NCBI GenBank assembly: GCA_021811085.1
Contig: JAJZPQ010000021.1
Coordinates: 1 to 56,631, forward strand
Origin: Pseudomonadota bacterium
GTDB lineage: Bacteria; Pseudomonadota; Gammaproteobacteria; Burkholderiales; SG8-39
Length of the DNA stretch: 56,631 nucleotides
Direction of reading: 5' to 3'
In this document: piece after piece, positions 16,427-56,135 of the stretch
How positions within the stretch are numbered: position 1 is the stretch's first letter
Layout: each line of letters opens with the position of its first letter
Translations under genes and position numbers: made by a program
The notes under the pieces: generated by a model
Told to the model about the DNA's origin: nothing
Databases searched by the model: none
The model's input: the letters and a program-made list of their open reading frames with translations, nothing else

Positions 16427-16498
16427 GCTCGCTCTGTCCCAGCGGCTCAGGCGCTTCGTCCATGCAAATGTGCTGCACGCATCGGCCGCCGTCCACGT

Positions 16499-18226: not shown

Positions 18227-18504
18227 CGCTGCGCTCCCGCAGCCGCAGGCATCACCACTTGCGTGCGCTTCGCATCGGGCAGGCTCATGTGCAGGCGCTC
18301 GCGCGCAATCTTTTCCACCCGCGCATGCATCGCCCAGGTGCTCTGCTCGAGCTGCAGCTGCCCCCATTCGACGTCGAGCTGCTTCGCCTGCTCCTGCTCG
18401 CGCTCGAGCTCGGCGAACAGCTTTCTCGTCTTGTCCTGCGCGGTCACCAGGCCGAGCGCGCAGGCGGTGAGCAGCGCGAGCAGGATGAGGTTGAGGCGCG
18501 CCAA
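18223..18504 (-). CDS. ftsL: Cell division protein FtsL
   Basis: FtsL is a small bitopic divisome protein that pairs with FtsB through a coiled coil. The proposed start is TTG at 18504, one base after the rsmH stop, giving 93 residues beginning (M)ARLNLILLALLTACALGLV, a single transmembrane helix. A charged heptad-rich coiled coil follows (RKLFAELEREQEQAKQLDVE). The frame also has a GTG at 18543 inside rsmH that would add 13 residues, but the shorter form matches the usual FtsL N-terminus. It overlaps ftsI by 4 bp. Confidence 0.88.
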   Translation of the reverse strand: MARLNLILLALLTACALGLVTAQDKTRKLFAELEREQEQAKQLDVEWGQLQLEQSTWAMHARVEKIARERLHMSLPDAKRTQVVMPAAAGAQR

Positions 18505-18505
18505 C

Positions 18506-19483
18506 TCAGGCTCCGCTGCGTTCGGCGACGCGCAGAGTCGCACTGCGCGCGCGCGGGTTGGCGGCGATCTCCTCGGCCGAGGGGCGCAGCGGCTTGCCGA
18601 TCAGGCGCAGCTTGGGCTGCGGCAGTTCGCGCTCGCGCAAGGGCAGGCGGATCGGCGCAGCGGAGTGGGCCGAGTCGTGCATGAAGCGTTTGACGATGCG
18701 GTCCTCGAGCGAGTGGAAGCTGATCACCGCCAGGCGTGCGCCCGGGTGCAGCAGCTCGAGCATTTGCGGCAGGGCTAACGACAACTGCGCAAGCTCCTGA
18801 TTGACGTAAATCCGTACAGCCTGGAAGGTGCGCGTCGCCGGGTCCTTGTTTTTTTCCCGCGTGCGGACGGCCGTACCCACGATATCGGCAAGTTGCCCTG
18901 TGGTGAGGACTGGCCCTCTTTGCCGAGCAGCAACAATCGCCTTTGCAATCTGTTTAGCAAACCGTTCTTCACCATAATCGCGGATCACCTCCCTGATCTC
19001 GGCTTCACTGGCTGTTTCCAGCCACTGTGCGGCGGTTTGCCCCTGGCTCGTGTCCATGCGCATATCGAGCGGGCCGTCGCGGCGAAAACTGAAGCCGCGT
19101 GCAGCGTCGTCGAGCTGCGGCGAAGACACGCCTAGGTCGAGCAGCACCCCATCCACACCCTCCAGGCCGAGGCGCTCGAGCACCCCTGCCAGTTCGACGA
19201 AGCTCGCGTGCACCATGCAAAATCGAGCATCGTCTATTCTTGCTGCAGCCGCGACCGCTTGCGGATCCTTGTCGAGCGCGATCAAGCGCCCGCGCGCACC
19301 CAGTTGGTCGAGGATCCGGCGGCTGTGTCCGCCGCGTCCAAACGTTGCATCGACGTAGCAACCGTTTGCACGCTTCGAATCCGCGCATATCGCCAACGCA
19401 TCGACCGCCTCCTGCAGCAATACCGTCTTGTGCGCATCCTGCGCCGCCACAGCCGGCACCCCTTCAGCCGCAACAGCGGTCAC
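18506..19483 (-). CDS. rsmH: 16S rRNA (cytosine(1402)-N(4))-methyltransferase RsmH (MraW)
   Basis: RsmH methylates N4 of C1402 in 16S rRNA using SAM. The start is a GTG overlapping the mraZ stop (GTGA) and gives 325 residues; the frame is open upstream through mraZ but that is not coding. Motifs are [13 protein letters not shown] near the start, the SAM-binding [40 protein letters not shown] with [12 protein letters not shown], and the C-terminal [20 protein letters not shown]. All are signature features. The gene order mraZ-rsmH-ftsL is conserved. Confidence 0.97.
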
Positions 19484-19923
19484 AGAGCAAAATCTTCCAT
19501 CCCCGGCGGCAGCTGGGTCTGCGCCGTCAACTGCTGCAATTGTTTTTCCCAGGTATCCTGATTCCAGATCTCGAAATGGCTGCCCTGCCCGACCAACATC
19601 ACCTGTTTTTCCAGCGCGGCGAACTTGCGCAACTCGGGGGAAATCAGCACGCGCCAGGCGGCGTCGATTTCGACTTCCTCGGCGAAACCCACCAGCAGCC
19701 GCTTCCATACGGAAAAGCGCGCATCCAGCGCAGGAAAGGCCATGACACGCGCGCGTATCGGCCCCCAGGCGCTCGCGGGATAGAGCAGCAGGCAACCGTC
19801 GGGGTGCGCGGTGAGGACGAGATTGGGAGGGGAGGATTTTTCCAGCAGCGCATCGCGATGCCGCGTGGGAACGGTCAGCCGCCCTTTGGCATCGAGGCTT
19901 AAGGCTGCCGCACCCTGAAACAT
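19480..19923 (-). CDS. mraZ: Transcriptional regulator MraZ
   Basis: MraZ is the DNA-binding regulator of its own dcw operon. The 147-residue product has two AbrB-like SpoVT halves: [20 protein letters not shown] with the conserved DxKGR motif, and a second, less conserved half around [20 protein letters not shown]. The second DxxGR motif appears to be eroded: the expected position reads around [16 protein letters not shown], whereas the usual form is DxxGRILL. Length is normal. It is the first gene of the operon, and its promoter region contains TGGG boxes typical of MraZ operators. Confidence 0.94.
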
Positions 19924-39168: not shown

Positions 39169-39804
39169 TCAGCCCTTGGGCGCCGCAGAGCGCGATTCGT
39201 CCTGGCGGTTCTTCTCCTCGAGCGCCTTGATCAGGCCGTCCACCCCGCCGTCACGGACCATCTCGGAAAATGAGTCGCGGTAGCTCGTGACCAGGCTGAT
39301 TCCTGCAACCGTGATGTCGTACACCTTCCATCCTGCCGGCGTCTTCTCCATGTCGTAGTCCATGGCGATGGGCTCGGTCCCGGATTGCTTCACCACGGAT
39401 TTGACCGTGACCTCGGTAGCGCCCGGAGCCGAACGCAGGCTCCTGAATTCGATCACCTGGTCGCGATAGCTCGACAAGGCCGATGAATAGGTGCGCACCA
39501 GCAGCGCCTTGAACGCGGCAGTGAGAGCCGCCTGCTGCGCGGGCGTGGCCGTGCGCCAGTTGCGCGCGACTGCAAGCCGGGTCATGCGCGAAAAATCGAA
39601 CAGCGGCACAACTTTCGTTTCAATCAGGCTGGCGATCTGCTTCTGCTCGCCACCGTGCTGACCGCGCTCCTGCTTCATCGCCGTGATCACCTCCAGCGTC
39701 GTCGCCTGCAGCATCGCGTTTGGCTCGAGCTCCAGCGCGGGCAACAGCGGCGCCGCGAGCCCCAGGGCCAGCGACAGCACCAAATTCATTTTCGTTTTAT
39801 GCAT
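39169..39804 (-). CDS. MlaC-like periplasmic phospholipid-binding protein, copy 1
   Basis: The 211-residue protein has a signal peptide (NLVLSLALGLAAPLLPALE) and the MlaC/Ttg2D fold signature: VVPLFDFSRMTRLAVARNWR, FKALLVRTYSSALSSYRDQV, TEVTVKSVV, GWKVYDITVAGISLVTSYRD and a C-terminal GGVDGLIKALEEKN. MlaC shuttles phospholipids between MlaA and the MlaFEDB transporter. Neither mlaA nor mlaFEDB is in the window, so this is an unlinked copy. Together with copy 2 (82 bp away) it forms a tandem pair. Confidence 0.9.
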   Translation of the reverse strand: MHKTKMNLVLSLALGLAAPLLPALELEPNAMLQATTLEVITAMKQERGQHGGEQKQIASLIETKVVPLFDFSRMTRLAVARNWRTATPAQQAALTAAFKALLVRTYSSALSSYRDQVIEFRSLRSAPGATEVTVKSVVKQSGTEPIAMDYDMEKTPAGWKVYDITVAGISLVTSYRDSFSEMVRDGGVDGLIKALEEKNRQDESRSAAPKG

Positions 39805-39886
39805 GGCGTTTCCTCATTCGATTACCCAACGCGCAGGACTATGGCCAGGTTGACCGCCTTCGGCCGGAGGCAACCCATCCCTGCCT

Positions 39887-40588
39887 CTATGGCCGGCCGC
39901 CGCCAAACATATTCAGAAAGATCGCGTACATGAGCCGGGATTTTTCCCAGAAAGCGCGTTTGACGGAATTGAATCTCGCGCCGCCTTCATGGTTTCCGTC
40001 CGCAAGGAATTTAATCAGGCCGCTCACGCCGCCGTCGCGCACCTTCTCGGCAAAGATATCGCGATAAGTGGTGACCAGGCGCACGCCTGCAACCTTGACA
40101 TCGTAGATCTTCCATCCGGCCGGCGTCTGCTCCATCTCGTAGTCCAGCGCCACCCGTTCCTTCCCCGGCTGCTCCACTTCGGATCTAACCGTCACCTCGG
40201 TGGCCAGAGGCGGCCCGCGCAGCCGTTTGAATTCGAACACTTCGCCGCGATAATTCCCGAGCGCAGTGGAATAGGTGCGCAGCAACAGCGCCCTGAACTC
40301 CCGCGTTAGCACCGTTTGCTGTTCCGGCGTAGCCAGGCGCCAGTTGCGCGCCATCGCGAGCTGGGTCATGCGGCCGAAATCGAACAGCGGCGCGATGTCG
40401 CTCTCGACCAGAGCCGCCACTTTCATCGAGCCGGCCGTCCGGGTTTCCTGGTCCTGCTTGAGTATGTCGATTACCTTGACCGTTACCGCCCGCAACAGCG
40501 CGTCCGGCGCAAGCTCCTGCGCAGGCAGCGCCGGCGCAGCAAGCGCCAGCGCCAGCAGCAGCGGGTAACGCGCGACCAGCTTCTGCAT
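39887..40588 (-). CDS. MlaC-like periplasmic phospholipid-binding protein, copy 2
   Basis: The 233-residue paralogue of the neighbouring gene has a signal peptide (PLLLALALAAPALPAQE) and matching motifs IAPLFDFGRMTQLAMARNWR, FRALLLRTYSTALGNYRGEV, TEVTVRSEV, GWKIYDVKVAGVRLVTTYRD and GGVSGLIKFLADGN. It has a longer C-terminal tail (about 25 residues, including RAFWEKSRLMYAIFLNMF, partly hydrophobic) not found in copy 1. The pair probably arose by an old tandem duplication; divergence is considerable. Downstream in transcription order is copy 1; upstream is the glycine-zipper lipoprotein gene. Confidence 0.9.
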   Translation of the reverse strand: MQKLVARYPLLLALALAAPALPAQELAPDALLRAVTVKVIDILKQDQETRTAGSMKVAALVESDIAPLFDFGRMTQLAMARNWRLATPEQQTVLTREFRALLLRTYSTALGNYRGEVFEFKRLRGPPLATEVTVRSEVEQPGKERVALDYEMEQTPAGWKIYDVKVAGVRLVTTYRDIFAEKVRDGGVSGLIKFLADGNHEGGARFNSVKRAFWEKSRLMYAIFLNMFGGGRP

Positions 40589-43089: not shown

Positions 43090-46056
43090 ATGACGGTCCT
43101 CACCAAAGATGCTGTGATGAACGCCGGTTCCGGCGGCGGCGCGGGCGAAAAGCAGGGCGTACTGGACAGTGGCACCGAATTCCAGCGCCAGGAAACCCTG
43201 CTCAAGACGGGCGCGTTGCAGGATGCGATATTCAACAGCGCCAACTTTTCCAGCATCGCCACCGACGCGAACGGCGTGATTCAAATATTCAACGTCGGCG
43301 CCGAGCGCATGCTGGGCTATACGGCTGCCGACGTCCTGAACAAAATCACACCGGCCGACATTTCCGATCCGCAGGAAGTCATCGCGCGCGCCAAGGCGTT
43401 GAGCGTCGAGCTCGATACGCCGATTACGCCGGGTTTCGAGGCCCTGGTGTTCAAGGCCTCGCGCGGCATCGAGGACATCTACGAATTGACCTACATCCGC
43501 AAGGACGGCAGCCGCTTTCCGGCGATCGTATCGGTCACGGCGCTGCGCGACGCGCAGGACGCCATCATCGGCTACCTCTTGATCGGCACCGACAACACCG
43601 CGCGCAAACACGCGGAAGAGGCGCTCGTCAAGGCCGGCGCCCTGCAGAGCGCGATTTTCAACAGCGCCAATTTCTCGAGTATCGCCACCGACGCGAACGG
43701 CGTGATTCAAATATTCAACGTCGGCGCCGAGCGCATGCTGGGCTATACGGCTGCCGACGTCCTGAACAAAATCACACCGGCCGACATTTCCGATCCGCAG
43801 GAAGTCATCGCGCGCGCCAAGGCGTTGAGCGTCGAGCTCGATACGCCGATTACGCCGGGTTTCGAGGCCCTGGTGTTCAAGGCCTCGCGCGGCATCGAGG
43901 ACATCTACGAATTGACCTACATCCGCAAGGACGGCAGCCGCTTTCCGGCGATCGTATCGGTCACGGCGCTGCGCGACGCGCAGGACGCCATCATCGGCTA
44001 CCTCTTGATCGGCACCGACAACACCGCGCGCAAGCAGGCGGAAGAGGCGCTCGTCAAGGCCGGCGCCCTGCAGAGCGCGATTTTCAACAGCGCCAATTTC
44101 TCGAGTATCGCGACCGACGCGAAGGGCGTGATCCAGATCTTCAACGTCGGCGCGGAGCGCATGCTCGGCTACGCGGCCGCCGATGTGATGAACAAGATCA
44201 CGCCGGCGGATATTTCCGATCCGCAGGAGGTGATCGCGCGCGCGAAAGCGTTGAGCGCCGAGCTCGGCACCCCGATTGCGCCGGGGTTCGAAGCGCTGGT
44301 GTTCAAGGCCTCGCGCGGCATCGAGGACATCTACGAGCTGACCTACATCCGCAAGGACGGCAGCCGCTTTCCGGCGGTGGTGTCGGTCACGGCGCTGCGC
44401 GATGCGCAGGACGCCATCATCGGTTACCTGCTGATCGGCACCGACAACACCGCGCGCAAACAGATCGAGGAAGAGCGCAAGCAGCTCGACCAGCGTTTGC
44501 GCGACTATCAGTTCTACACCCGCTCCTTGTTCGAAGCCAACATCGACGCCCTGATGACTACCGATCCGTCCGGCATCATTAGCGACGTCAACAAGCAGAT
44601 GGAGGCGCTCACCGGCTGCACGCGCGACGAGCTGATCGGCGCGCCGTTCAAGAATTACTTCACCGATCCGGAGCGGGCCGAGGCGAGTATCAAGCAGGTG
44701 CTCGCCGAAAAGAAGGTCACCAACTACGAGCTCACCGCGCGCGCCCGGGATGGCAAGGAAACGGTGGTGTCCTACAACGCGACCACCTTCTACGATCGGG
44801 ACAGGAAACTGCAGGGCGTGTTCGCCGCCGCGCGCGATGTTACCGAACGCAAACGCCTGGATGTCGAACTGGAGCGCGCCAGGTCGGTGGCGGAAAAGGC
44901 CAACCTCGCCAAATCGGAATTTCTCTCCAGCATGAGCCATGAGCTGCGCAGCCCGCTCAATGCCATCCTCGGCTTCGGCCAGTTGATGGAGTCCGATTCT
45001 CCGCCGCCAACGCCCGCCCAAAAGGAGAGCATCGCCCAGATTCTTCAGGCGGGATGGCATCTGCTGAAGTTGATCAACGAGATCCTCGATCTGGCGAAGG
45101 TCGAGTCCGGGCAGGTGCCGCTGTCGCAGGAACCGGTGTCGCTGGCCGAAGTCATGCTCGAATGCCAAGGCATGATCGAACCGCAAGCGCAGCAGCGTGG
45201 CATCAAACTGAACTTCCCCCGGTTCGACATCCCCTATTTTGTCCAGGCGGATCGGACGCGGTTGAAGCAGATTCTGATCAATCTGCTTTCCAATGCGATC
45301 AAATACAACCGCGAGCAGGGAACGGTCGTCGTGGACTGCGCCAAGAGCGCCCCGGAACGCATTCGCATCAGCGTCAGGGACAGCGGCGCGGGCCTGTCTC
45401 CGGAACAGTTGGCTCAGCTATTCCAGGCGTTCAATCGTCTCGGACAGGAGGCCGGCGGCGAGGAAGGCACCGGCATTGGCCTGGTGGTGGCCAAGCGGCT
45501 GGTCGAACTGATGGGGGGCAGCATCGGCGCGGAAAGCAGCGTCGGAGTGGGCAGCTTGTTCTGGTTCGAACTCATCTCGGCTGCTGATCCGCTCCTTGTC
45601 ATGGATGAAAGCGAAGCAGCGACCATGGCCCAGGCGCCTGTGCCTCGCGCATCGCGGCCACACAGCTCCTTGCTCTATGTAGAGGACAACCCGGCGAACA
45701 TGAAACTGGTCGAGCAAATCATCGCGCGCCAGCCCGATATCAGCCTGCTGACCGCGGTGAACGGGCATAGCGGCATCCAGATTGCGCGCGACCAGCAGCC
45801 GGACGTGATCCTGATGGATATCAATCTGCCCGACATCACCGGCTTCGACGCACTGAAGATCCTGCGCGCAGAACCGGCCACGGCGCACATCCCCGTCATC
45901 GCCGTCAGTGCCAATGCCATGCAGCTTGACATCGAAAGGGGCGTGAAGGCGGGATTCTTCCGCTACATCACCAAGCCGATCAAGGTCGATGAGTTCATGC
46001 AGGCGCTGAATGTGGCGCTGGATTTTGCGCGACAAAAGGCCGGGGAGCGTAAATGA
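43090..46056 (+). CDS. Hybrid histidine kinase with three repeated PAS domains
   Basis: The 988-residue cytoplasmic protein has no signal or membrane segment. It contains three nearly identical PAS units of 142 residues (about 36-461), a fourth different PAS (about 475-600, starting FYTRSLFEANIDALMTTDPS), HisKA with His617 (SSMSHELRSPLNAILGFGQL), HATPase with QILINLLSNAIKYN and GTGIGLVVAKRLVELMGG, and a C-terminal REC domain with Asp910 (DVILMDINLPDITGF). It may sense a soluble or redox signal and pass phosphate to the following response regulators. The ATG was placed at MTVLTKDAVM; the upstream open frame is non-coding. The stop overlaps the next gene by 4 bp. Confidence 0.95.
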   Translation: MTVLTKDAVMNAGSGGGAGEKQGVLDSGTEFQRQETLLKTGALQDAIFNSANFSSIATDANGVIQIFNVGAERMLGYTAADVLNKITPADISDPQEVIARAKALSVELDTPITPGFEALVFKASRGIEDIYELTYIRKDGSRFPAIVSVTALRDAQDAIIGYLLIGTDNTARKHAEEALVKAGALQSAIFNSANFSSIATDANGVIQIFNVGAERMLGYTAADVLNKITPADISDPQEVIARAKALSVELDTPITPGFEALVFKASRGIEDIYELTYIRKDGSRFPAIVSVTALRDAQDAIIGYLLIGTDNTARKQAEEALVKAGALQSAIFNSANFSSIATDAKGVIQIFNVGAERMLGYAAADVMNKITPADISDPQEVIARAKALSAELGTPIAPGFEALVFKASRGIEDIYELTYIRKDGSRFPAVVSVTALRDAQDAIIGYLLIGTDNTARKQIEEERKQLDQRLRDYQFYTRSLFEANIDALMTTDPSGIISDVNKQMEALTGCTRDELIGAPFKNYFTDPERAEASIKQVLAEKKVTNYELTARARDGKETVVSYNATTFYDRDRKLQGVFAAARDVTERKRLDVELERARSVAEKANLAKSEFLSSMSHELRSPLNAILGFGQLMESDSPPPTPAQKESIAQILQAGWHLLKLINEILDLAKVESGQVPLSQEPVSLAEVMLECQGMIEPQAQQRGIKLNFPRFDIPYFVQADRTRLKQILINLLSNAIKYNREQGTVVVDCAKSAPERIRISVRDSGAGLSPEQLAQLFQAFNRLGQEAGGEEGTGIGLVVAKRLVELMGGSIGAESSVGVGSLFWFELISAADPLLVMDESEAATMAQAPVPRASRPHSSLLYVEDNPANMKLVEQIIARQPDISLLTAVNGHSGIQIARDQQPDVILMDINLPDITGFDALKILRAEPATAHIPVIAVSANAMQLDIERGVKAGFFRYITKPIKVDEFMQALNVALDFARQKAGERK
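43195..44472 (+). repeat. Three tandem 426-bp PAS-coding repeats
   Basis: The repeat starts at 43195, 43621 and 44047, an exact period of 426 bp (142 codons). From about 43255 to 43608, copy 1 is identical to copy 2 over ~350 bp. Copy 3 differs from them mainly at third positions and a few residues, yet its first ~65 bp are identical to the start of copy 2. Such mosaic identity suggests recent unequal crossing-over or gene conversion within the gene. Confidence 0.95.
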
Positions 46057-46487
46057 ACAAGGACCAGGCGCAAGTGCCTCGCGCAGCGTCGCCACGCACC
46101 CTGCTCTATGTAGACGACAACCCGGCGGACCGGAAACTGGTCGAGACCATCGTTGCGCGCCGCCCCGAGTTGCGCCTGCTGACCGCAGTGAACGGGAATA
46201 GCGGCATCGAACTTGCGCGCGCATCCCGGCCGGACGTGCTCCTGATGGACATCAATCTGCCCGACATCAGCGGCTTCAAGGCCCTGGAGATCCTGCGCTC
46301 GGAACCGGCCACAGCGCATATCCCGGCCATTGCCCTCAGCGTCAATGCCATGCCACTTAATGTCGAAAGCGGCCTGGAGGCAGGATTCTTCCGCTATATG
46401 ACCAAGCCGATCAGGGTCGATGAATTCATGCAGACGCTGGATGCGGCGCTGGAGTTTGCGGCAAGCCAATCCGCCAGGAGCAAATAG
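46053..46487 (+). CDS. REC-only response regulator
   Basis: The 144-residue protein is a single receiver domain with the acidic pair Asp21-Asp22 (LLYVDDNPADRKLVE), phosphoacceptor Asp66 (VLLMDINLPDISGF), a Ser switch residue (IALSVNAM) and Lys in YMTKPIRVDEFMQ. It is clearly related to the receiver at the end of the preceding hybrid kinase (shared LLTAVNG, SEPATAHIP and KPI-VDEFMQ features), so it probably arose by duplication of that domain. It starts with a 4-bp overlap to the kinase stop. A CheY/Spo0F-like role in the local phosphorelay is likely. Confidence 0.93.
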   Translation: MNKDQAQVPRAASPRTLLYVDDNPADRKLVETIVARRPELRLLTAVNGNSGIELARASRPDVLLMDINLPDISGFKALEILRSEPATAHIPAIALSVNAMPLNVESGLEAGFFRYMTKPIRVDEFMQTLDAALEFAASQSARSK

Positions 46488-46502
46488 GGCACTGGAACTC
46501 TC

Positions 46503-47567
46503 ATGATAAGCGCATCTGACATTCTTCAAGGCAAAATCCTGATCGTCGACGATATGGAAGCCAATGTCCTGCTGCTCGAACGGATGCTGCGCGGCGCCGG
46601 CTATGCGTCCATCGAATCGACGGCAAATCCCGTACAAGTCTGTGCGCTTCACCGCAACAACCGCTACGACCTGATCCTGCTCGATCTGCAAATGCCCGGC
46701 ATGGACGGATTTCAAGTGATGGAGGGGCTCAAGGAAATCGAAACCGACGGCTATCTTCCTGTGCTCGTGATTACCGCCCAGCCGGATCACAAGCTGCGCG
46801 CGTTCCGAGCCGGGGCGAAGGATTTCATCAGCAAGCCGTTCGATCTGACCGAGGTGCTGGCGCGCGTTCACAACATGCTGGAAGTGCGCCTGTTGCACAA
46901 GGAACTGCACCATTACAACGACGTGCTGGAACAACGCGTGCGCGAAAGGACCGCCGATCTTCAGGAAAATTATCTGGAAACCATTTTCACCATGACGCGC
47001 GCGGCCGAACACAAGGATGAAGACACCGGCGCGCACGTGCAACGCATCAGCTATTACAGCCGCGCGCTGGCCCGGATGCTCGGCCTGGATGAAGCGTTCG
47101 TCGACCAGATCTTTTTCGCGAGCCCGATGCACGACATCGGCAAGATAGGCATCCCCGACCATGTCCTGCTGAAGCCGGGCGGCTTGACGCCGGATGAGTG
47201 GGAGGTCATGAAGGGGCACGCCTCGATGGGCGCGGAGATCCTCGGCAACAGCAAGTCCCCCTATCTCAGGATGGGCGCCGAGATCGCGCTCAATCATCAC
47301 GAGCGCTGGGACGGCGGGGGTTATCCGAATGGCAAACGCGGAGACGCGATTCCACTGCCGGCGCGCATCATGAATATCTGCGACATCTACGACGCCCTTC
47401 GCAGCAAGCGGCCCTACAAGCCCGCATTCGACCATCCGAAGACCGTGGACATCATTATGCGCGGCGATGGCCGCACCCTGCCGGAGCATTTCGACCCGGT
47501 GATTCTCGCGGCTTTCCAGAAACACCACCAATCGTTCTGCGATATTTTCGACACATACACGGCATAG
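46503..47567 (+). CDS. Response regulator with HD-GYP c-di-GMP phosphodiesterase domain
   Basis: The 354-residue protein has an N-terminal REC domain (Asp16-Asp17, Asp61 in LILLDLQMPGMDGF, Thr91, Lys111), a helical linker and an HD-GYP domain (about 155-345). The catalytic features are EHKDEDTGAHVQRISYY, the HD pair His210-Asp211 in MHDIGKIGIPDH, KGHASMGAEIL, and HHERWDGGGYPNG with an intact GYP at 273-275. HD-GYP domains degrade c-di-GMP, so phosphorylation could control c-di-GMP level. It starts 15 bp after the REC-only gene. Its receiver is closely similar to that of the later REC-cyclase. Confidence 0.96.
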   Translation: MISASDILQGKILIVDDMEANVLLLERMLRGAGYASIESTANPVQVCALHRNNRYDLILLDLQMPGMDGFQVMEGLKEIETDGYLPVLVITAQPDHKLRAFRAGAKDFISKPFDLTEVLARVHNMLEVRLLHKELHHYNDVLEQRVRERTADLQENYLETIFTMTRAAEHKDEDTGAHVQRISYYSRALARMLGLDEAFVDQIFFASPMHDIGKIGIPDHVLLKPGGLTPDEWEVMKGHASMGAEILGNSKSPYLRMGAEIALNHHERWDGGGYPNGKRGDAIPLPARIMNICDIYDALRSKRPYKPAFDHPKTVDIIMRGDGRTLPEHFDPVILAAFQKHHQSFCDIFDTYTA

Positions 47568-47599
47568 ACTTTGATGGTTCGTTCTTGTTTCAAGCGGGT

Positions 47600-47674
47600 A
47601 CACTCCATGAGTTCATGCAGGCGCCGGGTGTGGCGCTGGAATTTGGGGGAAGCACATCTGCCGAGAGCAAATAG
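47600..47674 (+). pseudogene. Remnant of a second REC gene (3' end only)
   Basis: The sequence before the next gene encodes HEFMQAPGVALEFGGSTSAESK then a stop, matching the last ~22 codons of the REC-only gene (DEFMQTLDAALEFAASQSARSK, stop). The similarity runs on through the 15-bp spacer into the next start codon. The bulk of the gene is missing. This shows that the REC plus output-regulator pair was duplicated in tandem and that one REC copy was then deleted. Confidence 0.8.
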
Positions 47675-47689
47675 GGCGCTGCGATTCTC

Positions 47690-48811
47690 ATGATCAGTTC
47701 ATCTGACATTCTTCACGGCAAGATCCTTATCGTCGACGATCTGGAAGCCAATGTCCTGCTGCTCGAACGAATGCTGCTCGGTGCCGGCTATGTGTCCATC
47801 GAGACTACGACCGATCCGCTTGAGGTCTGCGAGCTTCATCGCAAGAACCGCTACGACCTGATCCTGCTCGACCTGCAAATGCCCGGAATGGACGGATTTC
47901 AGGTGATGCAAGGCCTGAAGGAAATAGAAACCGGCGGCTACCTTCCGGTCCTCGTGATCACCGCCCAACCGGATCACAAGCTGCGCGCCCTCAAAGCCGG
48001 GGCCAAGGATTTCGTCAGCAAACCGTTCGATCTCGCGGAAGTATTGATCCGGGTGTACAACATGCTCGAAGTCCGCCTGCTGCATCTGGAAACGAAAAAA
48101 CTCTACGATCGGGTCGTAGCAGAGCAGAAGCTGTCGGAGCGGCTGCTGCTCAACGTGCTGCCGCAGTCCATCGCCGAGCGCCTGAAGGGGCGTCCCGAAG
48201 TCACGGCCGAAGGTTTTTCCGAAGTCATTGCCGACAGCTTCGCCGAGGCCACGGTGCTGTTTGCAGACATCGTCCAATTCACCAAGTTTTCAGAGAGCGT
48301 CAGCGCCGAAGTCGTGGTGGACGTACTCAACGATATCTTCACCCGCTTTGACAGAATCGCCGACGAATATGGCCTGGAGAAGATCAAGACCATCGGCGAT
48401 GCCTACATGGTAGCCGCCGGACTTCCCGTACCCGTGTCCGATCATGCCGACCGGGTGGCGAACATGGCCTTGGACATGATGGAGGCGATCGACCGCTACA
48501 ACGCGCATAGCGGCCACACGCTGAGAGTGCGCATCGGCATCGACACCGGCGCGGTCGTGGCCGGCGTCATCGGCAAGCGCAAATTTCTCTACGACTTGTG
48601 GGGAGACGTCGTCAATACGGCCAGCCGCATGGAATCCCACGGCGTGCCCGGACGCATCCAGGTCACAGACGCGGCGCGGCAGCGCCTGAGCGAACGGTTC
48701 CTGTTTGAAGAGCGCGGCACCATCGACGTCAAGGGCAAAGGCGAGATGCGCACCTGGTTCCTCAATGGCAGGAACCGCAGCGCGGAATCGGGTACCGCGC
48801 CCTTGAATTGA
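47690..48811 (+). CDS. Response regulator with class III adenylate cyclase domain
   Basis: The 373-residue protein has a REC domain (Asp16-Asp17, Asp61, Thr91, Lys111) almost matching that of the HD-GYP gene, a coiled-coil linker (LETKKLYDRVVAEQKLSERL) and a class III cyclase domain (about 180-360). Metal ligands Asp193 (VLFADIVQF) and Asp237 (TIGDAYM), the adenine-selecting pair Lys233 and Asp302 (KTIGD; YDLWGD), and transition-state Asn309 and Arg313 (VVNTASR) are all visible. The Lys/Asp pair predicts ATP, giving cAMP, rather than GTP. A Crp-like gene lies 10 kb away in the same window. Confidence 0.95.
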   Translation: MISSSDILHGKILIVDDLEANVLLLERMLLGAGYVSIETTTDPLEVCELHRKNRYDLILLDLQMPGMDGFQVMQGLKEIETGGYLPVLVITAQPDHKLRALKAGAKDFVSKPFDLAEVLIRVYNMLEVRLLHLETKKLYDRVVAEQKLSERLLLNVLPQSIAERLKGRPEVTAEGFSEVIADSFAEATVLFADIVQFTKFSESVSAEVVVDVLNDIFTRFDRIADEYGLEKIKTIGDAYMVAAGLPVPVSDHADRVANMALDMMEAIDRYNAHSGHTLRVRIGIDTGAVVAGVIGKRKFLYDLWGDVVNTASRMESHGVPGRIQVTDAARQRLSERFLFEERGTIDVKGKGEMRTWFLNGRNRSAESGTAPLN

Positions 48812-48855
48812 CAAGGGTTCATGCGGTCACTGTGAGATCGCCGATTCGAGCGTTA

Positions 48856-48871
48856 GGTACGCTGCCGCACA
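48856..48871. promoter_or_regulatory. Inverted repeat, motif copy 5 (before kaiC)
   Basis: GGTACG-CTGC-CGCACA lies 146 bp before the kaiC-like start in the 205-bp gap after the cyclase gene. Its right arm CGCACATACAA continues as in copy 1 (CGTACATACAA). No clear -35/-10 pair was seen in the rest of the gap. Confidence 0.5.
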
Positions 48872-49016
48872 TACAATCGCGCTAAGACAGCGGACACTGC
48901 CAGAAGCAGGCGAACCATAGCCAGTTCCCTGACCAAGGCAGTCTTTCTCGCTCCTCCCGCGAATGATGCCGCGTGATCGGCCTCCAAGACCGTTCCATGT
49001 TTCGCCAGGAGGTAAC

Positions 49017-50762
49017 ATGCAATCGTTCCGATCTCCACACGTGAATTCGCCAGGCAAAGCCCCGACCGGCATCACCGGCTTCGACGACATCACCGGCGGC
49101 GGTTTGCCGCGCGGCCGCACGACGCTGCTGGTGGGCGGACCGGGCTCGGGCAAGACCGTGCTCGCGCTGCAGTTCCTGGCGCATGGCGCGCGCGCGTGCA
49201 AGGAACCGGGCATCTTCGTCGCTTTCGAGGAAACATCGAAGCGCATCGTCGCCAATGCCGAGAGCTTCGGCTGGAAACTGCCGGAGTTGCGGCGGAAAAA
49301 ACTGTTTTTCATGGACGCCCAGCCAGCGCCGGACCTGGTCCAGTCCGGGGATTTCGATCTCAGCGGGATGCTGGCGGCGCTGGGGGTCAAGGCCCGGGAA
49401 ATAGGGGCGCGGCGCATCGTGTTCGATGCCCTGGATGTCGTATTGGCGCTGTTGCCCGACCTGGCGGCGGAAAGGCGCGAGATCTACCGGCTGCATGAAT
49501 GGCTCTTGGCGCGAGAACTGACCGGCATCATCACTCTGAAGTCCGGGGCCGATGAGACCAGTTCGATCAGCCAGCAGCCGTTCGGCTTCATGCAATTCAT
49601 GGTGGACTGCGCGGTGATTTTGAACCACAGCGTGGTGCTGGGCGTGTCGCAACGCAGTCTGCGCGTGCAGAAGTATCGCGGCTCCAGCTTCGATGAAAAT
49701 GAATCGCCGTTCCTGATCGGCGAGAGCGGATTCGAGGTCGCCGTCGCGCGCACGCCGGGCCGCGTGGATGCGAAGGTGAGCAACGAACGCGTTTCCAGCG
49801 GCGTGGAGCGGCTCGATACCATGCTCGGCGGCGGCTATTACCGCGGCGCCAGCGTGCTCATTACCGGCTTCTCGGGCACGGCCAAGACGACCCTGAGCGG
49901 CGCCTTCGCCGAGGCGGCCTGCCGGCGCGGCGAGCGCACCCTGTTCGTCAGCTTCGATTCGGATGGCGCCGAGGTGATCCGCAACCTGGCCTCGGTAGGC
50001 ATCCGGCTGGATCGTTACGTGAAAAACGGCTGTCTGCGCATGATCTCGGCTCGCACCATCGCCGGCAGCGCGGAGACCTTCCTGGTGCGCATCAAGACGC
50101 TGGCGCGCGAGCATGGCGCCCGATGCGTGGCGATCGATCCGGTGTCCGCATGGTCCAAATCCGGTAATGAGTTGACCGCGCGCAGCGTGGCGGAACGATT
50201 GATCGACTGGTCCAAGGCCAACGACACCACCCTGGTCTGTACCAGCCTGCTGGACGAAATGTCCAGCCAGTCGGAGGGCGGCTCGTCGCTGCAGATCTCG
50301 AAGATCGCGGACACCTGGATCCACCTCAACTACCTGGTGCAGGCGGGGGAGCGCAACCGGGGCTTGTCCATCGTCAAGTCGCGCGGCACGGCGCATTCGA
50401 ACCAGGTGCGCGAGCTGATCCTGAGCGATGCGGGAGTGACGCTGGCTGACGCCTACACCGCGGGCGGCGAGGTGTTGATGGGCGCGCTGCGCTGGGAAAA
50501 GGAACGCGCCGACCGTGTCGCAACCGAGGTCAGCGAAGTGGCCGGAAAGCTCAAGCGCGTCAGGCTCGATGCCGAGGAGGCCGAGCTCGAGGTGCGCTTG
50601 AAGTCGCTGCAAACGGAGCTCGTGGCTAAGCAGGTGGAGAAGGCCTTGTTGGTCCGTACCACGCAGAGCGACGCGGGCGAGTTGTCGCGAGGCCGCACCC
50701 GGATGGAGGAGTTGCGCGGGGCCGATGCGGCGATCCCCGGGGCGGACGTGAAATCGCCATGA
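49017..50762 (+). CDS. kaiC: KaiC-like double ATPase with degenerate second domain
   Basis: The 581-residue protein has two KaiC ATPase domains and a C-terminal coiled coil (about 493-545). CI is intact: Walker A VGGPGSGKT (Lys46), the catalytic Glu pair in VAFEET (71-72) and Walker B RIVFDALD. In CII the P-loop GFSGTAKTT keeps Lys290, but the Glu pair is replaced by Asp-Ser (SFDSDG, 314-315). At the phosphosite region ISKIADTW the Ser (428) is kept while the neighbouring Thr is Lys429. Autophosphorylation is therefore probably lost or changed. A strong AGGAGG site precedes the ATG. It overlaps kaiB by 4 bp; no kaiA is present. Confidence 0.93.
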   Translation: MQSFRSPHVNSPGKAPTGITGFDDITGGGLPRGRTTLLVGGPGSGKTVLALQFLAHGARACKEPGIFVAFEETSKRIVANAESFGWKLPELRRKKLFFMDAQPAPDLVQSGDFDLSGMLAALGVKAREIGARRIVFDALDVVLALLPDLAAERREIYRLHEWLLARELTGIITLKSGADETSSISQQPFGFMQFMVDCAVILNHSVVLGVSQRSLRVQKYRGSSFDENESPFLIGESGFEVAVARTPGRVDAKVSNERVSSGVERLDTMLGGGYYRGASVLITGFSGTAKTTLSGAFAEAACRRGERTLFVSFDSDGAEVIRNLASVGIRLDRYVKNGCLRMISARTIAGSAETFLVRIKTLAREHGARCVAIDPVSAWSKSGNELTARSVAERLIDWSKANDTTLVCTSLLDEMSSQSEGGSSLQISKIADTWIHLNYLVQAGERNRGLSIVKSRGTAHSNQVRELILSDAGVTLADAYTAGGEVLMGALRWEKERADRVATEVSEVAGKLKRVRLDAEEAELEVRLKSLQTELVAKQVEKALLVRTTQSDAGELSRGRTRMEELRGADAAIPGADVKSP

Positions 50763-51049
50763 GCCGACGCGCCCTGTTCAAGTTCCGGCTTTATGTCGCG
50801 GGCGACGCGCTAAACTCGGCGCAGGCGCTTGCCAATCTCACCGCACTTTGCCGGACCCACCTGCAGGATCGGCACGAAATCGAAGTGGTGGATGTGTTTC
50901 GGGAACCGCAGCGTGCGCTGGAAAACGGCATTTTCATGACGCCGACTCTGGACAAGCTCGCGCCGTCCCCGGTCCGAAGAATCGTCGGCACACTGAGCCA
51001 GACGCAGCCCGTGTTGCAGGCTTTGGGCCTGGAAAGCTTCGCTCCATGA
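50759..51049 (+). CDS. kaiB: KaiB-like protein
   Basis: The 96-residue protein matches KaiB along its length: FKFRLYVAGDALNSAQALAN (beta-1 and the start of helix 1), EIEVVDVFREPQRALENGIF, MTPTLDKLAPSPVRRIVGTL and a C-terminal VLQALGLE. KaiB is the fold-switching partner that docks on the KaiC ring in the clock cycle. In KaiA-less proteobacteria KaiBC pairs act in stress tolerance or hourglass timing. Both its ends form ATGA overlaps (with kaiC and the PAS-EAL gene), so the three are tightly coupled. Confidence 0.94.
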   Translation: MSRRALFKFRLYVAGDALNSAQALANLTALCRTHLQDRHEIEVVDVFREPQRALENGIFMTPTLDKLAPSPVRRIVGTLSQTQPVLQALGLESFAP

Positions 51050-54000
51050 ACCCGGAAAAACCACGCCCTCCGGGGGACGCGGACGAGGAAATTTCCGCGT
51101 TGATCGAAGCGCTGGTCGAGACCGATCAACGCCTGGAGGATCTGACCGCGGGCAAGGTGGATGCGGTGGCGGACCGCCGCGGCCGGACGCTATTGTTGCG
51201 GCGCGCCCAGGACCAGTTGCGTCACAGCGAGGCCGCCAAGCAAACCGCCATCCTCAACGCGCTGCCCGCGCATATCGCTTTGCTCGATGCCCAAGGGCGC
51301 ATCATCTCGGTGAACGAGGCGTGGCGGCGATTTGCCGGCGCGACTGCAATCCAGCGACCCGGGTATGGGATCGGTATCAATTACATCGAGATTTGCGACG
51401 GCGCATGCGGAGATGATGCCACTGAGGCACACCAAGCGGCCGCAGGCATTCGTTCGGTTCTGGATGGTTCGGCAACGAGCTTTTCGATGGAATATCCCTG
51501 CCATTCGCCGGCGGAACAGCGCTGGTTCCTGTTGACTGTGACTCCGCTGGCTGATGACCGTTTAGCTGGCGCCATTGTCATGCACTTGGACATCACGCAG
51601 CGCAAGCGTGGCGAGGAAGCCCTGCGCGAGAGCGAGACGCGCTTTCGCATCCTGACCGCGATGTCTTCCGACTTCTACTGGGAGAGCGACGCCGAGCACC
51701 GGCTCACGGCGCGCGACTCGGCGAACAGGAAAGTCAGCTCGGTTTCGGTATTCCAGCGCGGCGCGCAGATCGGCGAGCGCCGCTGGGAGATTCCGCATCT
51801 TTCGCCCGACGAAGCTGGCTGGCAGGCGCATCGGGCCGTGCTCGACGCGCATCTTCCGTTCCGCGATTTCGAGCTCTCGCGGCTCGGAACCGACGGCGCA
51901 GAACGGCATATTTCGATCAGCGGCGATCCGGTGTTCGATGCCTCAGGCGTATTCCAGGGCTACCGCGGGGTCGGCACGGACGTCACCGAGCGCAAACAGG
52001 CCGCGCAGCAATTGCGCGAAAGCGAGCGGCGCTTCAGCGACATGCTGCGAAATGCGGAGCTGGCTACAGTGATGCTTGACCGCGAAGGGCGGATTACGTA
52101 TTGCAACGAGTACCTGCTCCGCCTGACCGGCTGGCGTCTCGAGGAAGTTATCGGACGGAACTGGGTCGACGTTTTCACACCACCCGAAATTGCCGATGCG
52201 AGGAAAGATGCTTTCGCGGCGATGCTTGCCAACCTGCCCGACGCACGGCATCGCGAGAACAAGATCCTCACGCGTTCGGGCGAGCGTCGGCTCATTCGCT
52301 GGAACAATTCGTTGCTGCGCTCGGGCGCCGGCGAGGTGATCGGAACGGCGAGCATCGGCGAAGACATAACTGAGCGAAAACGCACGGAACAAGCACTGGC
52401 GCGCCTGGTGGCGATCATCGAGGCGACCCCCGATTTGGTAGGCATGTGTGACCTGAAGGGCGATTTGCTCTACCTCAATCGGGCGGGACTGCGGATGCTT
52501 GGGCTTGAGCCGGGGCTGGATCTGTCTACGGTACGCTATCTTGAAACCCTTTCGGATTGGGCGGCGAAGCTGGTGGCGGAGACGGGGATTCCCCACGCCA
52601 TCGAGCATGGAACCTGGAGCGGGGAAACGGCACTTCTCCGGCCTGACGGGCGCGAAATTCCCATTTCTCAGGTGCTCATTGCACACAAGGGGTCCGACGG
52701 ATCGGTCGAGTACCTGTCCACCATTGCGCGCGACATCACGCTGCAAAAGGAGCACGAAAGACGTATCACGCGACTCAACCGCGTATACGCAATGCTGAGC
52801 GGCATCAACACGCTCATCGTGCGCACCCGGGATCGGCAGGAACTGTTCGAGGAGGCGTGCCGAATCACGGTGGAACAGGGCGAGTTCCGGCTGGCCTGGA
52901 TCGGACTGCTCGACGCCAATGGGATGGACATCACGCCCGTGGCCAGGGCGGGCGTCGACGAAGGCTACCTTGGCAATATCCAGCTGACGGCCAGAGAGGA
53001 CGCGCCCGACCGCTGCGAGGTGTTGGCGCGCGCGTTGCGGGAAAAGACGGCCGTGGTCTGCAACGATATCGATACCGATCCGCAGATAGCGCGCTGGCGC
53101 GAGGAGGCGCTGCGGCGCGGTTATCGGTCGGTGGTCGTGTTCCCGCTGCAATTCGCCGATAAGGTGTTGGGCGTCGTCGCGCTCTACGCATCGGAGAAGG
53201 ATTTCTTCGATACGGAGGAGATGAAGGTGCTCACCGAGCTCGCCCGCAACATTTCGTTCGCGATCGATCACATCGACAAGCAGGCGCGGCTCGATTACCT
53301 CGCCTACTACGACGAGCTCACCGGCCTCGCGAACCGCAGCCTGTTTCTCGATCGGGTGGCGCAGTACATGCGCAGCGCCGCCGGCGGCGGGCATGAACTG
53401 GCCGTGTTCCTGATCGATCTGGAGCGGTTCAAGAACATCAACGACAGCCTCGGCCAGCCGGCCGGCGATGCGCTGCTGCGCCAGGTAGCAGAGTGGCTGA
53501 CGCGCAACGCGGGGGACGCCAATCTGCTCGCGCGGACGGGGGCGGACCATTTTGCCCTGGTGCTGCCGCAAGTAAGGCAGGCCGGCGACGTCACGCGGCT
53601 GCTCGAGAAAACGACGGCCGCGTTTCTGGACCATCCGTTCCGCCTGAACGACGCCGTGTTCCGGATCTCTGCCAAGGTCGGCGTGGCGGTGTTCCCTGAC
53701 GACGGCGCCGATGCCGAGACGCTATTTAGGAACGCCGAGGCGGCACTCAAGAAGGCCAAGGCGAGCGGCGCACGCTACCTGTTTTACACGCAGAGCATGA
53801 CCGCATCGGTGGCCGCCAAGCTCACCCTGGAAAATCAGCTTCGCCAGGCGCTGGACAACGAGGAATTCGTGCTGCATTACCAACCCAAGGTGAACCTCGC
53901 GAGCGGCAAGCTCACCGGCGCCGAGGCGCTGATCCGCTGGAACGATCCGCGCACAGGCCTGGTGCCGCCGGGCCGCTTCATCCCCATACTGGAAGAAACC

Positions 54001-54594
54001 GGAATGATTTACGACGTCGGCCGCTGGGCGCTGAAGAAAGCCATCGCAGACTACCTGCGCTGGTGCGCTGCGGGCCTGCCTGCGGTGCGCATTGCGGTAA
54101 ACGTGTCGCCGCTGCAACTGCGCAATCGCGGCTTCATCGATGAGATCAGGCAGGCCATCGGCACCGACGCGCAGGCGACCGCCGGGCTGGAACTGGAGAT
54201 CACCGAAAGCCTGATCATGGAGGACGTCAAACACAGTATTGCCAGCCTGCGGGCGATCCGTGACCTGGGCGTGAGCATCGCCATCGACGATTTCGGCACC
54301 GGCTTCTCCTCGCTCAGCTACCTCGCCAAGCTACCGGTGGACACGCTCAAGATCGACCGCTCGTTCGTGATCGAGATGACGGTCGCTCAAGAGGGATTGG
54401 CACTGGTGTCCACCATCATCAGTCTGGCGCATTCGCTGAAACTCAAGGTGGTAGCGGAGGGCGTTGAAACCGAGGAACAATCGCGCCTGCTGCGGCTGCT
54501 CGCCTGCGACGAAATGCAGGGCTTTTTATTCAGCAAACCGGTGCCGAGCGAGATCTTCGAAGCAAAATTCCTGGCCCCGCCTGCGACCGGGTGA
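51046..54594 (+). CDS. PAS-GAF-GGDEF-EAL protein, GGDEF degenerate, EAL intact
   Basis: The 1182-residue cytoplasmic protein starts with an acidic coiled segment (residues 13-62) like those of Kai-associated kinases, then four PAS domains (about 65-185, 197-316, 328-445, 452-566), a GAF domain (about 585-742), GGDEF (about 750-915) and EAL (about 925-1175). The GGDEF motif reads GADHF (832-836), so cyclase activity is unlikely; such domains may bind GTP. EAL catalytic residues are present: Glu960 (AEALIRW), Asn1019, Glu1051, Asp1081-Asp1082 (IAIDDFGTGFSS), Lys1102 and Glu1138, predicting c-di-GMP phosphodiesterase. The ATG overlaps the kaiB stop. Confidence 0.95.
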   Translation: MNPEKPRPPGDADEEISALIEALVETDQRLEDLTAGKVDAVADRRGRTLLLRRAQDQLRHSEAAKQTAILNALPAHIALLDAQGRIISVNEAWRRFAGATAIQRPGYGIGINYIEICDGACGDDATEAHQAAAGIRSVLDGSATSFSMEYPCHSPAEQRWFLLTVTPLADDRLAGAIVMHLDITQRKRGEEALRESETRFRILTAMSSDFYWESDAEHRLTARDSANRKVSSVSVFQRGAQIGERRWEIPHLSPDEAGWQAHRAVLDAHLPFRDFELSRLGTDGAERHISISGDPVFDASGVFQGYRGVGTDVTERKQAAQQLRESERRFSDMLRNAELATVMLDREGRITYCNEYLLRLTGWRLEEVIGRNWVDVFTPPEIADARKDAFAAMLANLPDARHRENKILTRSGERRLIRWNNSLLRSGAGEVIGTASIGEDITERKRTEQALARLVAIIEATPDLVGMCDLKGDLLYLNRAGLRMLGLEPGLDLSTVRYLETLSDWAAKLVAETGIPHAIEHGTWSGETALLRPDGREIPISQVLIAHKGSDGSVEYLSTIARDITLQKEHERRITRLNRVYAMLSGINTLIVRTRDRQELFEEACRITVEQGEFRLAWIGLLDANGMDITPVARAGVDEGYLGNIQLTAREDAPDRCEVLARALREKTAVVCNDIDTDPQIARWREEALRRGYRSVVVFPLQFADKVLGVVALYASEKDFFDTEEMKVLTELARNISFAIDHIDKQARLDYLAYYDELTGLANRSLFLDRVAQYMRSAAGGGHELAVFLIDLERFKNINDSLGQPAGDALLRQVAEWLTRNAGDANLLARTGADHFALVLPQVRQAGDVTRLLEKTTAAFLDHPFRLNDAVFRISAKVGVAVFPDDGADAETLFRNAEAALKKAKASGARYLFYTQSMTASVAAKLTLENQLRQALDNEEFVLHYQPKVNLASGKLTGAEALIRWNDPRTGLVPPGRFIPILEETGMIYDVGRWALKKAIADYLRWCAAGLPAVRIAVNVSPLQLRNRGFIDEIRQAIGTDAQATAGLELEITESLIMEDVKHSIASLRAIRDLGVSIAIDDFGTGFSSLSYLAKLPVDTLKIDRSFVIEMTVAQEGLALVSTIISLAHSLKLKVVAEGVETEEQSRLLRLLACDEMQGFLFSKPVPSEIFEAKFLAPPATG

Positions 54595-54641
54595 CGAATG
54601 ACGACCGCTTACGAGAATAAGTCGCCACCCCAGTCACCGAG

Positions 54642-56135
54642 ATGACGGCCAACGCAGCCATGCCGGAACAATATTCGCCGGCCCGACTCTTCCTCACGCT
54701 GCTCGTGCTGATCTTTTGCATCGAGGGGGCGTTGATGTTTGCGCTGGACGCTCTTTTGCCGAAAGGCACCCCGCTCTGGGTGAGCACCAGCATCGATGCG
54801 GGTCTGCTCACCGCAATTACTTCCGTATTCATGTGGCGGCTGTTCGTTCGGCCGCTCGAATTCGCCTTGCGAAGCGAGGCCGCCCAGGCCAAAGCGATAA
54901 CCGACACCGCCGCCGAAGGCATCATTACTATCGATGAGCACGGTATCATCGAGTCGCTAAACCGCGCCGCGGAGCGCATGTTCGCTTACGAAGCCAGGGA
55001 GGTCATCGGAAAGAACCTAAGAATGCTGATGCCTGAACCGCATGCCGCCGAGCACGATGATTATCTGGCGCGCTACATCTGTACCGGGCAAGCCCGGGCC
55101 ATCGGGCGAACCCGGGAACTCTCGGCGCTGCGCCGGGACGGGACCGAGTTCCCGATTGAACTCAGCATCGCCGAGATCCGAGTCGGGGGGACGAGACGCT
55201 TTACCGGAATCATCCGCGATGCCACCGAGCGCAGGCGCGCGGAACAAGCCTTGCGCGATAGCGCAGAGAAGCTGCGCCTGTTCGCCGACAACGTTCCTGC
55301 CATGACCGTCTCCTATGACGAGAACCTGCGTTGCCGCTTCGCCAACAAGGCGTTCGCCGAGTTTTTCGGTTTTAACGTGGAGAACATTCTCGGCAAGCAC
55401 CTGCGAGAGGTGGTCGGGGAGGAGGCATACCGGGAGGTCGAAGGCCATTTTGCGCAAGTGCTGCGGGGACATCCGGTCACTTACCAGCGGGCACACAAGC
55501 TTACAAACGGCGAGCGTCGCTACCTCGAGGTCAAGCTGCTGCCACATATCTCCGACCACGGAAAGGTCTTGGGCTGTTATGCGGTGACCACCGACATTAC
55601 CGAACACAAGCTGGCGGAGGAGCGCATCCAGCGTGTCGCGCATCACGACAGCCTCACCGGCCTGCCGAACCGCTTGCTGTTCAACGACCGGCTGAATCAG
55701 GCGATTAGCCTGGCCAAACGCGGCTCGCGCCAGTTCGCGCTGCTGTACCTCGACCTGGACCGCTTCAAGCCGGTGAACGACAGCCTGGGGCACACCGCCG
55801 GCGACGAGCTGTTGCAGGCGGTTGCCGCGAGAATCCGCCGCCAGGTACGCGAATCCGACACTGTCGCCCGCGTCGGCGGCGATGAATTCACCGTGATCCT
55901 GCCCGACATCGCGCGGCGCGAGGAGGCTGAAGCCGTGGCCAGAAAAATCATTGCCGCACTTGCCGTCCCGTTCCAACTCGGCAGCCCGAAGCAGAGCGTC
56001 GACATCGGGACCAGCATCGGCATCGCGCTCTATCCGGCCGACGCGCGGGATGCGGACGCGCTGGTCAAGGCGGCCGATGCCGCCATGTACGGCACCAAGC
56101 AAGTGGGGAGCAGCTTTAGATTTTGCGAAGGGTAA
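54642..56135 (+). CDS. Membrane diguanylate cyclase with a FixL-like haem PAS domain
   Basis: The 497-residue protein has two transmembrane helices (about 15-38 and 48-68) with a very short loop, PAS1 (about 80-195), PAS2 (about 205-320) and GGDEF (about 330-490). PAS1 closely follows the FixL haem domain: AAERMFAYEAREVIGKNLRM, AEHDDYLARYICTG with the haem-ligand-position His138, and IGRTREL with Arg158 at the oxygen-contact position; their spacing of 20 equals that of His200 and Arg220 in Bradyrhizobium FixL. GGDEF is intact (RVGGDEF) with an RxxD inhibitory site (RESD). An oxygen-sensing c-di-GMP synthase is predicted. It begins 47 bp after the PAS-EAL gene. Confidence 0.93.
   Translation: MTANAAMPEQYSPARLFLTLLVLIFCIEGALMFALDALLPKGTPLWVSTSIDAGLLTAITSVFMWRLFVRPLEFALRSEAAQAKAITDTAAEGIITIDEHGIIESLNRAAERMFAYEAREVIGKNLRMLMPEPHAAEHDDYLARYICTGQARAIGRTRELSALRRDGTEFPIELSIAEIRVGGTRRFTGIIRDATERRRAEQALRDSAEKLRLFADNVPAMTVSYDENLRCRFANKAFAEFFGFNVENILGKHLREVVGEEAYREVEGHFAQVLRGHPVTYQRAHKLTNGERRYLEVKLLPHISDHGKVLGCYAVTTDITEHKLAEERIQRVAHHDSLTGLPNRLLFNDRLNQAISLAKRGSRQFALLYLDLDRFKPVNDSLGHTAGDELLQAVAARIRRQVRESDTVARVGGDEFTVILPDIARREEAEAVARKIIAALAVPFQLGSPKQSVDIGTSIGIALYPADARDADALVKAADAAMYGTKQVGSSFRFCEG

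Follow-up and report, generated by a model that had tools for sequence, protein, structure and literature searches.

In the 56,631-nucleotide stretch analyzed here (the window; contig C142 of a 4.48 Mb Pseudomonadota genome in 148 contigs), kaiC and kaiB are followed by a third gene for a predicted cyclic di-GMP (c-di-GMP) phosphodiesterase. We propose that KaiC and KaiB probably form an ATP-driven switch that controls this dedicated enzyme via an N-terminal adaptor of the third protein. The three genes (kaiC, 49017..50762; kaiB, encoding 96 aa, 50759..51049; third gene, 51046..54594; all on the plus strand) are joined by 4-bp ATGA overlaps, which a first-pass annotation of this DNA had reported correctly both here and for a kinase/REC gene pair further upstream. 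Judged by gene order and conservation, kaiC-kaiB-third gene (49017-54594) is a conserved three-gene operon, from which we infer co-transcription. The candidate adaptor, termed the GEVDA element herein, spans aa 13-63 of the third protein (51082..51234). This constant N-terminal element, overlooked in the first-pass annotation, is the strongest sign of KaiBC coupling and, being linked to KaiB and apparently undescribed as far as literature searches show, seems to be the most interesting part of the locus.

Across loci, the third protein starts alike whatever its output domain, with approximately EEIxALIETLHxTxQRLEELTAGEVDxVxDxxGRTFLLRxAQExLRxSEA and then a PAS domain. In the window, the proposed KaiB-linked adaptor and this first PAS domain (PAS1, 51235-51621) make up a constant region (aa 13-192, 51082..51621) found in third proteins of both the EAL and the kinase type. 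When 20-residue blocks were compared among and across the two types (39 EAL-type and 15 kinase-type rows, with eight 'cut/none' loci left out), mean identity was 0.36-0.70 throughout aa 13-192 and 0.16-0.24 in the three blocks that follow. A constant N-terminus of about 180 residues, starting with a GEVDA element of about 50 residues and independent of the output, is newly reported here. The 51-residue element had only a sub-threshold match in Pfam (E 0.19) and none in NCBIfam, the constant region had no significant Pfam match except its PAS domain, and a profile of the 183-residue constant region (alignment of 47 rows) had no match among PDB sequences at E 0.01. PAS1 carries highly conserved Cys (NYLxxCD, EYPCHSP), possibly a metal, haem or redox site.

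Behind this constant front the outputs differ. A KaiC scan of genome contigs yielded 66 kaiC loci, mostly from beta- and gammaproteobacterial records, in which the third gene encoded GGDEF-EAL with GAF (35 loci, including L038, L051 and L053, where the contig ends after the EAL match begins), a kinase (13), a kinase fused to EAL (2), a contig-cut GGDEF-bearing protein (3), or a truncated or broken product or one in which no domain was detected (8); in five it fell outside the locus. When EAL or kinase labels were placed on a quick KaiC tree (52 of 65 rows labelled, two short KaiC rows omitted, support from the Shimodaira-Hasegawa-like approximate likelihood ratio test [SH-aLRT] only), seven changes were needed, at least three of them forced by the starred branches. 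Exchange of the catalytic end behind a constant front looks like output swapping. The element was present in 61 of the 62 loci in which kaiB has 150 nt or more beyond it; outside this count are L046, which ends too soon, and L055, L078 and L087, which show no kaiB. A second form of the element, approximately RLxEAExxLxAIRxGEVDAxVV...LxGADxPYR, was found beside kaiB in other kaiBC clades. Behind the element, 100 distinct proteins (six contigs met twice, L130-L133, L135 and L136, being omitted) carried GGDEF+EAL (44), a kinase (23), GGDEF only (4), kinase+EAL (2) or, in 27 cases that include some truncated at a contig end, no domain that we found. At L210, a GAF-HD-GYP frame overlaps and follows the element-bearing gene.

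Genome searches tied the element closely to kaiB. In 40 genomes (the window's own and 39 relatives), where all candidates were scored, the first profile matched in seven, each time directly after kaiB and nowhere else; in the other samples, at most 17-20 first-look candidates were scored per genome. A class sample of 369 genomes (own included) gave four strong matches, all adjoining kaiB, and six weak ones (E 7.5e-4 to 7.7e-3), of which one (G067) adjoins kaiB and five do not. In three of these five (L138, L140 and L142) a local profile found nothing, and in the remaining two (L139 and L141) the matched frames are unlike the element. The second-form profile matched at eight places in 7 of the 369 genomes, all directly after kaiB, seven of the places being in its training set and the eighth, in G104, untrained. 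With a joint profile, 329 genomes of the phylum yielded eight further untrained genomes, with the kaiB match ending 46-96 bp before each element, and 376 genomes of another class of the phylum (that of G533) yielded four new ones, all with the order kaiC-kaiB-kaiB-element. The Pararhizobium qamdonense p3 plasmid has the same order, its kaiC-kaiB-kaiB genes being annotated. Altogether, 14 of 15 untrained and previously unseen matches adjoin kaiB (G104, the eight and the four genomes, and the plasmid), as do three more untrained first-profile matches (G004, G189 and G241). The window's own row, shifted by 10 residues in one alignment, was part of the first profile and was left out of the local one. 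Among the candidates scored, the genome searches gave no support to the initial expectation that many PAS kinases lacking Kai proteins would begin in a GEVDA-like way.

Among all loci examined, which were mostly chosen for kaiC or kaiB and in which six contigs were counted twice, 100 of 102 element matches start 24-242 bp after the kaiB match (median, 45). The other two are L212 (the G104 case), which follows a kaiB with an in-frame TAG, and the second element of L033, which lies one gene further; at this locus (11736-19917), kaiB is followed by two output genes in a row, kinase-REC-REC-EAL and GAF-GGDEF-EAL, both with a GEVDA element.

These results make it roughly an even bet that GEVDA serves KaiBC timers outside cyanobacteria as a general, previously undescribed adaptor for Kai docking. 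On this view, a module of about 50 residues would plug interchangeable outputs, namely, histidine kinases, c-di-GMP phosphodiesterases and related proteins, into KaiB or KaiB-KaiC, the output in the window's clade being c-di-GMP hydrolysis. Several observations count against so close a tie. L062 has no element despite kaiB and 732 nt following it. The fifteenth unseen match is on a Methylosinus plasmid (a single plasmid present in two records), where a kinase carries a degenerate relative of the element that lacks the GEVD core (tblastn E 1e-7, profile E 4e-4); kaiB was neither annotated nor detected in the 9.3 kb examined. Of the 26 genomes in the class sample that have kaiB (34 places), 11 have the element genome-wide, or 12 with G121, which came from a local search, so that many kaiBC systems lack it. 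Finally, in a comparison of distance matrices that left out L081, L082 and L087, partial r for the partner of the element was 0.34 with KaiB and 0.43 with KaiC, with overlapping intervals, which does not single out KaiB.

A simpler account, that the element is a mere dimerizing signalling helix into PAS1 and is linked to kaiB by operon inheritance, with no Kai contact, suits its helix-like sequence ahead of a PAS domain and the joint inheritance of operon neighbors. We regard this as unlikely, since the element is kept in divergent kaiBC clades with different downstream domains, no match away from kaiB reached E 1e-4 or better in the genome searches, and the element is still found after kaiB when kaiC is not next to it. 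The last situation is seen at L107 and L115 (both of genome G368), where kaiB-GEVDA gene pairs come after a GGDEF gene and kaiC is either 2.8 kb away or absent from the contig; the direct upstream neighbor of the element there is kaiB, not kaiC.

In the window, the adaptor would act on a c-di-GMP enzyme. The third protein was read as PAS-GAF-EAL in the first-pass annotation, which holds for those domains and misses a GGDEF domain (53302..53772, Pfam E 1.5e-36), so that the full order is GEVDA element-PAS1-further PAS-GAF-degenerate GGDEF-EAL. The EAL domain (53833..54540) has the motifs EALIRW, NVSP, EITES, DDFGTG, LKID, AEGVET and QG, and thereby the expected catalytic residues; with few exceptions, the catalytic motifs are retained across 38 rows. 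Of 36 GGDEF motifs, 5 are intact and 31 degenerate, the window's being GADHF. Retention of EAL with a mostly degenerate GGDEF points to a phosphodiesterase rather than a bifunctional enzyme, and we therefore predict c-di-GMP hydrolysis as the activity of the third protein.

Kinase-type third genes were followed at once by a REC-EAL gene in 5 of 13 loci (L045, L065, L069, L070 and L086), two of the 13 (L037 and L064) being cut by the contig end. An EAL domain was thus reached in the third or the next gene in 42 of 48 loci (35 GGDEF-EAL, two fusions and 11 uncut kinases); that no EAL gene directly follows in 6 of the 11 uncut kinase-type loci is a point against the proposed reading. From the class sample, we fetched 25 of the 34 kaiB places (20 regions), plus G288 and G189, leaving most of the weak ones (G145, G194, G248, G371 and G397). 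In 9 of the 20 regions, a same-strand GGDEF, EAL or HD-GYP frame lay no more than 300 bp from kaiB. The window's genome has a total of 27 GGDEF domains at E 1e-10, so chance adjacency to kaiB should be rare. The earlier suggestion of a link between KaiBC and c-di-GMP turnover is therefore upheld as far as the conserved operon goes, and its mechanism is a proposal.

KaiC itself departs from known phosphorylation timers. The protein, for which a start at 49017 is preferred over 48963 (an AGGAGG-like site precedes 49017), has both KaiC/RecA-like domains (CI, 49062-49742; CII, 49791-50444) and matches NCBIfam NF006799 at 476.6 bits (cut-off, 408). Its nearest solved structure is the Rhodobacter sphaeroides KaiC of the KaiBC hourglass (8dba, E 5e-101; also 8fwi), and its C-terminal extension, a possible counterpart of the coiled coil in timers of that type, can be aligned to 8dba up to 8dba residue 537. 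CI is intact, with the P-loop GGPGSGKT, the EE pair in FVAFEE and the arginine region KYRG, all kept in nearly all of 67 aligned rows. In CII, the window has the P-loop GFSGTAKT and FDSD where the EE pair is expected; across the 67 rows (window included), the P-loop is GxxGTAKT, and D-S or D-T mostly stands in place of the EE pair (FDSD, FDTN and others). At the phosphosite positions (S431/T432 and S413/S414, the latter being those of R. sphaeroides in the accessible text of PMC10076222), the window has S-K and so misses one phosphorylatable residue, and the second site among the 67 rows is most commonly T, then A, K and S. The protein lacks two features of the R. sphaeroides and Synechococcus elongatus phosphorylation timers, namely, the CII EE pair and the paired phosphosites. 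Without an EE pair in CII and with a variable second phosphosite, KaiC of this clade may not run a two-site phosphorylation timer; it may still show an ATP/ADP-dependent ring state and KaiB binding. KaiB matches the Pfam KaiB domain above cut-off (E 5.7e-22) and falls below the NCBIfam equivalog cut-offs.

Three further observations concern kaiC in other records. At L084 (9908-11251, Methylotuvimicrobium buryatense 5G), the KaiC frame has about 450 aa and query residues 1-570 are matched over just 1224 nt; a part of KaiC thus seems to be missing, with kaiB and the GEVDA-EAL gene still present. At L077 (9713-11743), kaiC is broken into two frames that abut, next to an apparently intact kaiB and GEVDA-EAL gene. 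KaiC proteins of L022-L087 are mostly 68-87% identical in their best segment across beta- and gammaproteobacterial, Verrucomicrobia and Planctomycetota records, which suggests transfer between phyla or mis-binned contigs.

Taken together, these features are consistent with a mechanism in which KaiC, with an ATPase-competent CI and an altered CII, would change state with nucleotide status and bind or release KaiB. The KaiB/KaiC complex would be read by the GEVDA element and PAS1 of the third protein, and this reading, together with the protein's own PAS/GAF sensing, would set c-di-GMP hydrolysis by the EAL domain; the degenerate GGDEF domain would be a regulatory GTP site at most. Physical docking, the direction of control and any timer behavior are what we infer from the sequence features above. 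The reverse direction, with the third protein serving as an input that tunes KaiBC by PAS/GAF sensing and by c-di-GMP or GTP bound at EAL/GGDEF, is compatible with an operon and an element that leave direction unfixed. In S. elongatus, moreover, lowering c-di-GMP alters the period and phase of the clock, though no direct effect on Kai proteins was found in vitro (PMC13001216). We think this reverse direction improbable, given that EAL, kinase and kinase+EAL are exchanged behind a constant front in the manner of output swapping and that the EAL motifs are retained.

If KaiBC does control the phosphodiesterase, KaiBC in the window's clade would be tied to c-di-GMP and hence to the decision between sessile and motile life. 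Outside cyanobacteria, such a short element, as a marker of Kai output proteins in many Pseudomonadota, would name the protein to assay in each species. It also makes a direct binding test feasible on a 60-residue fragment.

The genes around the operon had been grouped with it as a single signalling island of seven intact genes and one remnant; strand and remnant stand, and the intact genes number eight, as do the proteins that the first-pass annotation itself named. Upstream, all on the plus strand, are a hybrid kinase (PAS x4-HisKA-HATPase-REC by domain matches, 43090..46056), which overlaps a stand-alone REC protein (46053..46487) with 66% identity to the kinase's REC domain; a REC-HD-GYP protein (46503..47567) with HD and HHE..DG.GYP motifs seen by eye; a REC-tail remnant (about 47604..47674) with the last codons of a second REC copy; and a REC-class III nucleotide cyclase (47690..48811), whose first 151 aa are 79% identical to the start of the REC-HD-GYP protein. 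The segments 46417-46716 and 47604-47903 are 84% identical, which points to a tandem duplication of the REC end and REC-effector start, followed by a deletion that left the remnant. Within the kinase gene (43202-44353), the first three PAS domains are tandem copies at 426-bp spacing, the later two with 96% and 86% DNA identity to the first; such near-identity indicates recent in-gene duplication. Downstream lies a predicted PAS-PAS-GGDEF diguanylate cyclase (54642..56135, plus strand) with a membrane-helix-like N-terminus, a GGDEF motif and an RxxD site (all by eye). The first-pass annotation had called it haem-PAS-GGDEF, of which PAS-GGDEF was confirmed; the haem is plausible, as residues 71-203 match a FixL-like PAS model (NCBIfam E 7e-40) far below the model cut-off. 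Further away, two MlaC genes stand in tandem on the minus strand (39169-40588; Pfam PF05494 in both).

The upstream block is set apart because it is found without kaiB and rarely before kaiC. Kinase and cyclase proteins were searched in the 40 genomes (own included), and a kinase of the window's family followed by a same-strand protein with the same REC half, the only part of that second protein that matched, occurred in six genomes without kaiB (G005, G014, G019, G021, G030 and G033). Ahead of kaiC, such a kinase was found in the window and in 2 of the 51 other loci in which over 2 kb precede kaiC, namely, L022 (= L132 of G010) and L049 (= L133 of G013), which are congeners and have shortened effector frames. 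Against a clean separation, a REC-HD-GYP gene abuts kaiC in L046 (8801-9925), and within 1 kb before kaiC there are a REC-GGDEF gene (L058), a REC frame (L065), GGDEF or GGDEF-EAL genes (L023, L034, L083 and L066), and a frame with kinase and GGDEF matches (L050 and L053). Signalling genes, often c-di-GMP ones, do cluster ahead of kaiC, yet they are not the window's set. It is thus very doubtful that phosphorelay, cyclic AMP (cAMP), c-di-GMP and KaiBC genes form one integrated system with cAMP as a parallel output, as first suggested from their shared strand and order and in line with the two congeners, L046 and L058, because the kinase block recurs without kaiB and precedes kaiC in so few loci. 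The gene-order comparison in relatives hence favors conservation of kaiC-kaiB-third gene without co-conservation of the upstream block, and we treat the kinase/REC-HD-GYP/REC-cyclase block and the diguanylate cyclase as neighbors of the operon rather than as established parts of it.

That no such system had been described, as initially claimed, is too strong. In the accessible text of De Luca et al. 2011 (PMC3164672), it is stated that nearly every non-cyanobacterial kaiC-kaiB cluster has a gene for a kinase or a GGDEF/EAL protein behind it, and this order was therefore already known; that remark is made in passing in a genome paper, whose text as available contains no constant N-terminus, swap analysis or function. 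Operons of kaiC-kaiB-PAS/kinase are described in PMC4794148 and PMC6627678, and one is listed in PMC3899966. No description of the GEVDA element was found in the available portions of these four papers or of PMC13001216, PMC5520375 and PMC10278575, and no paper was found with the word GEVDA, which is weak evidence since motifs are rarely printed so. The operon shares a two-domain KaiC, KaiB and a PAS signalling protein with the purple-bacterial kaiC-kaiB-PAS/kinase operons of R. sphaeroides (the hourglass) and Rhodopseudomonas palustris, as far as these are set out in the partial texts of PMC10076222 and PMC4794148. The KaiC C-terminal extension is likewise present in R. sphaeroides (8dba/8fwi). 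The window differs from the purple-bacterial operons in that its output is a predicted c-di-GMP phosphodiesterase, CII has D-S instead of EE, and the second phosphosite is Lys. A comparable reading of Kai state by signalling proteins with docking domains is known from cyanobacteria, in SasA, which also figures in PMC3164672, and in CikA. The docking part is a KaiB-like domain in SasA and a pseudo-receiver in CikA; for the GEVDA region, neither Pfam (beyond PAS) nor the PDB sequences gave a significant match. If our proposal is correct, the GEVDA element would play the role of these docking domains.

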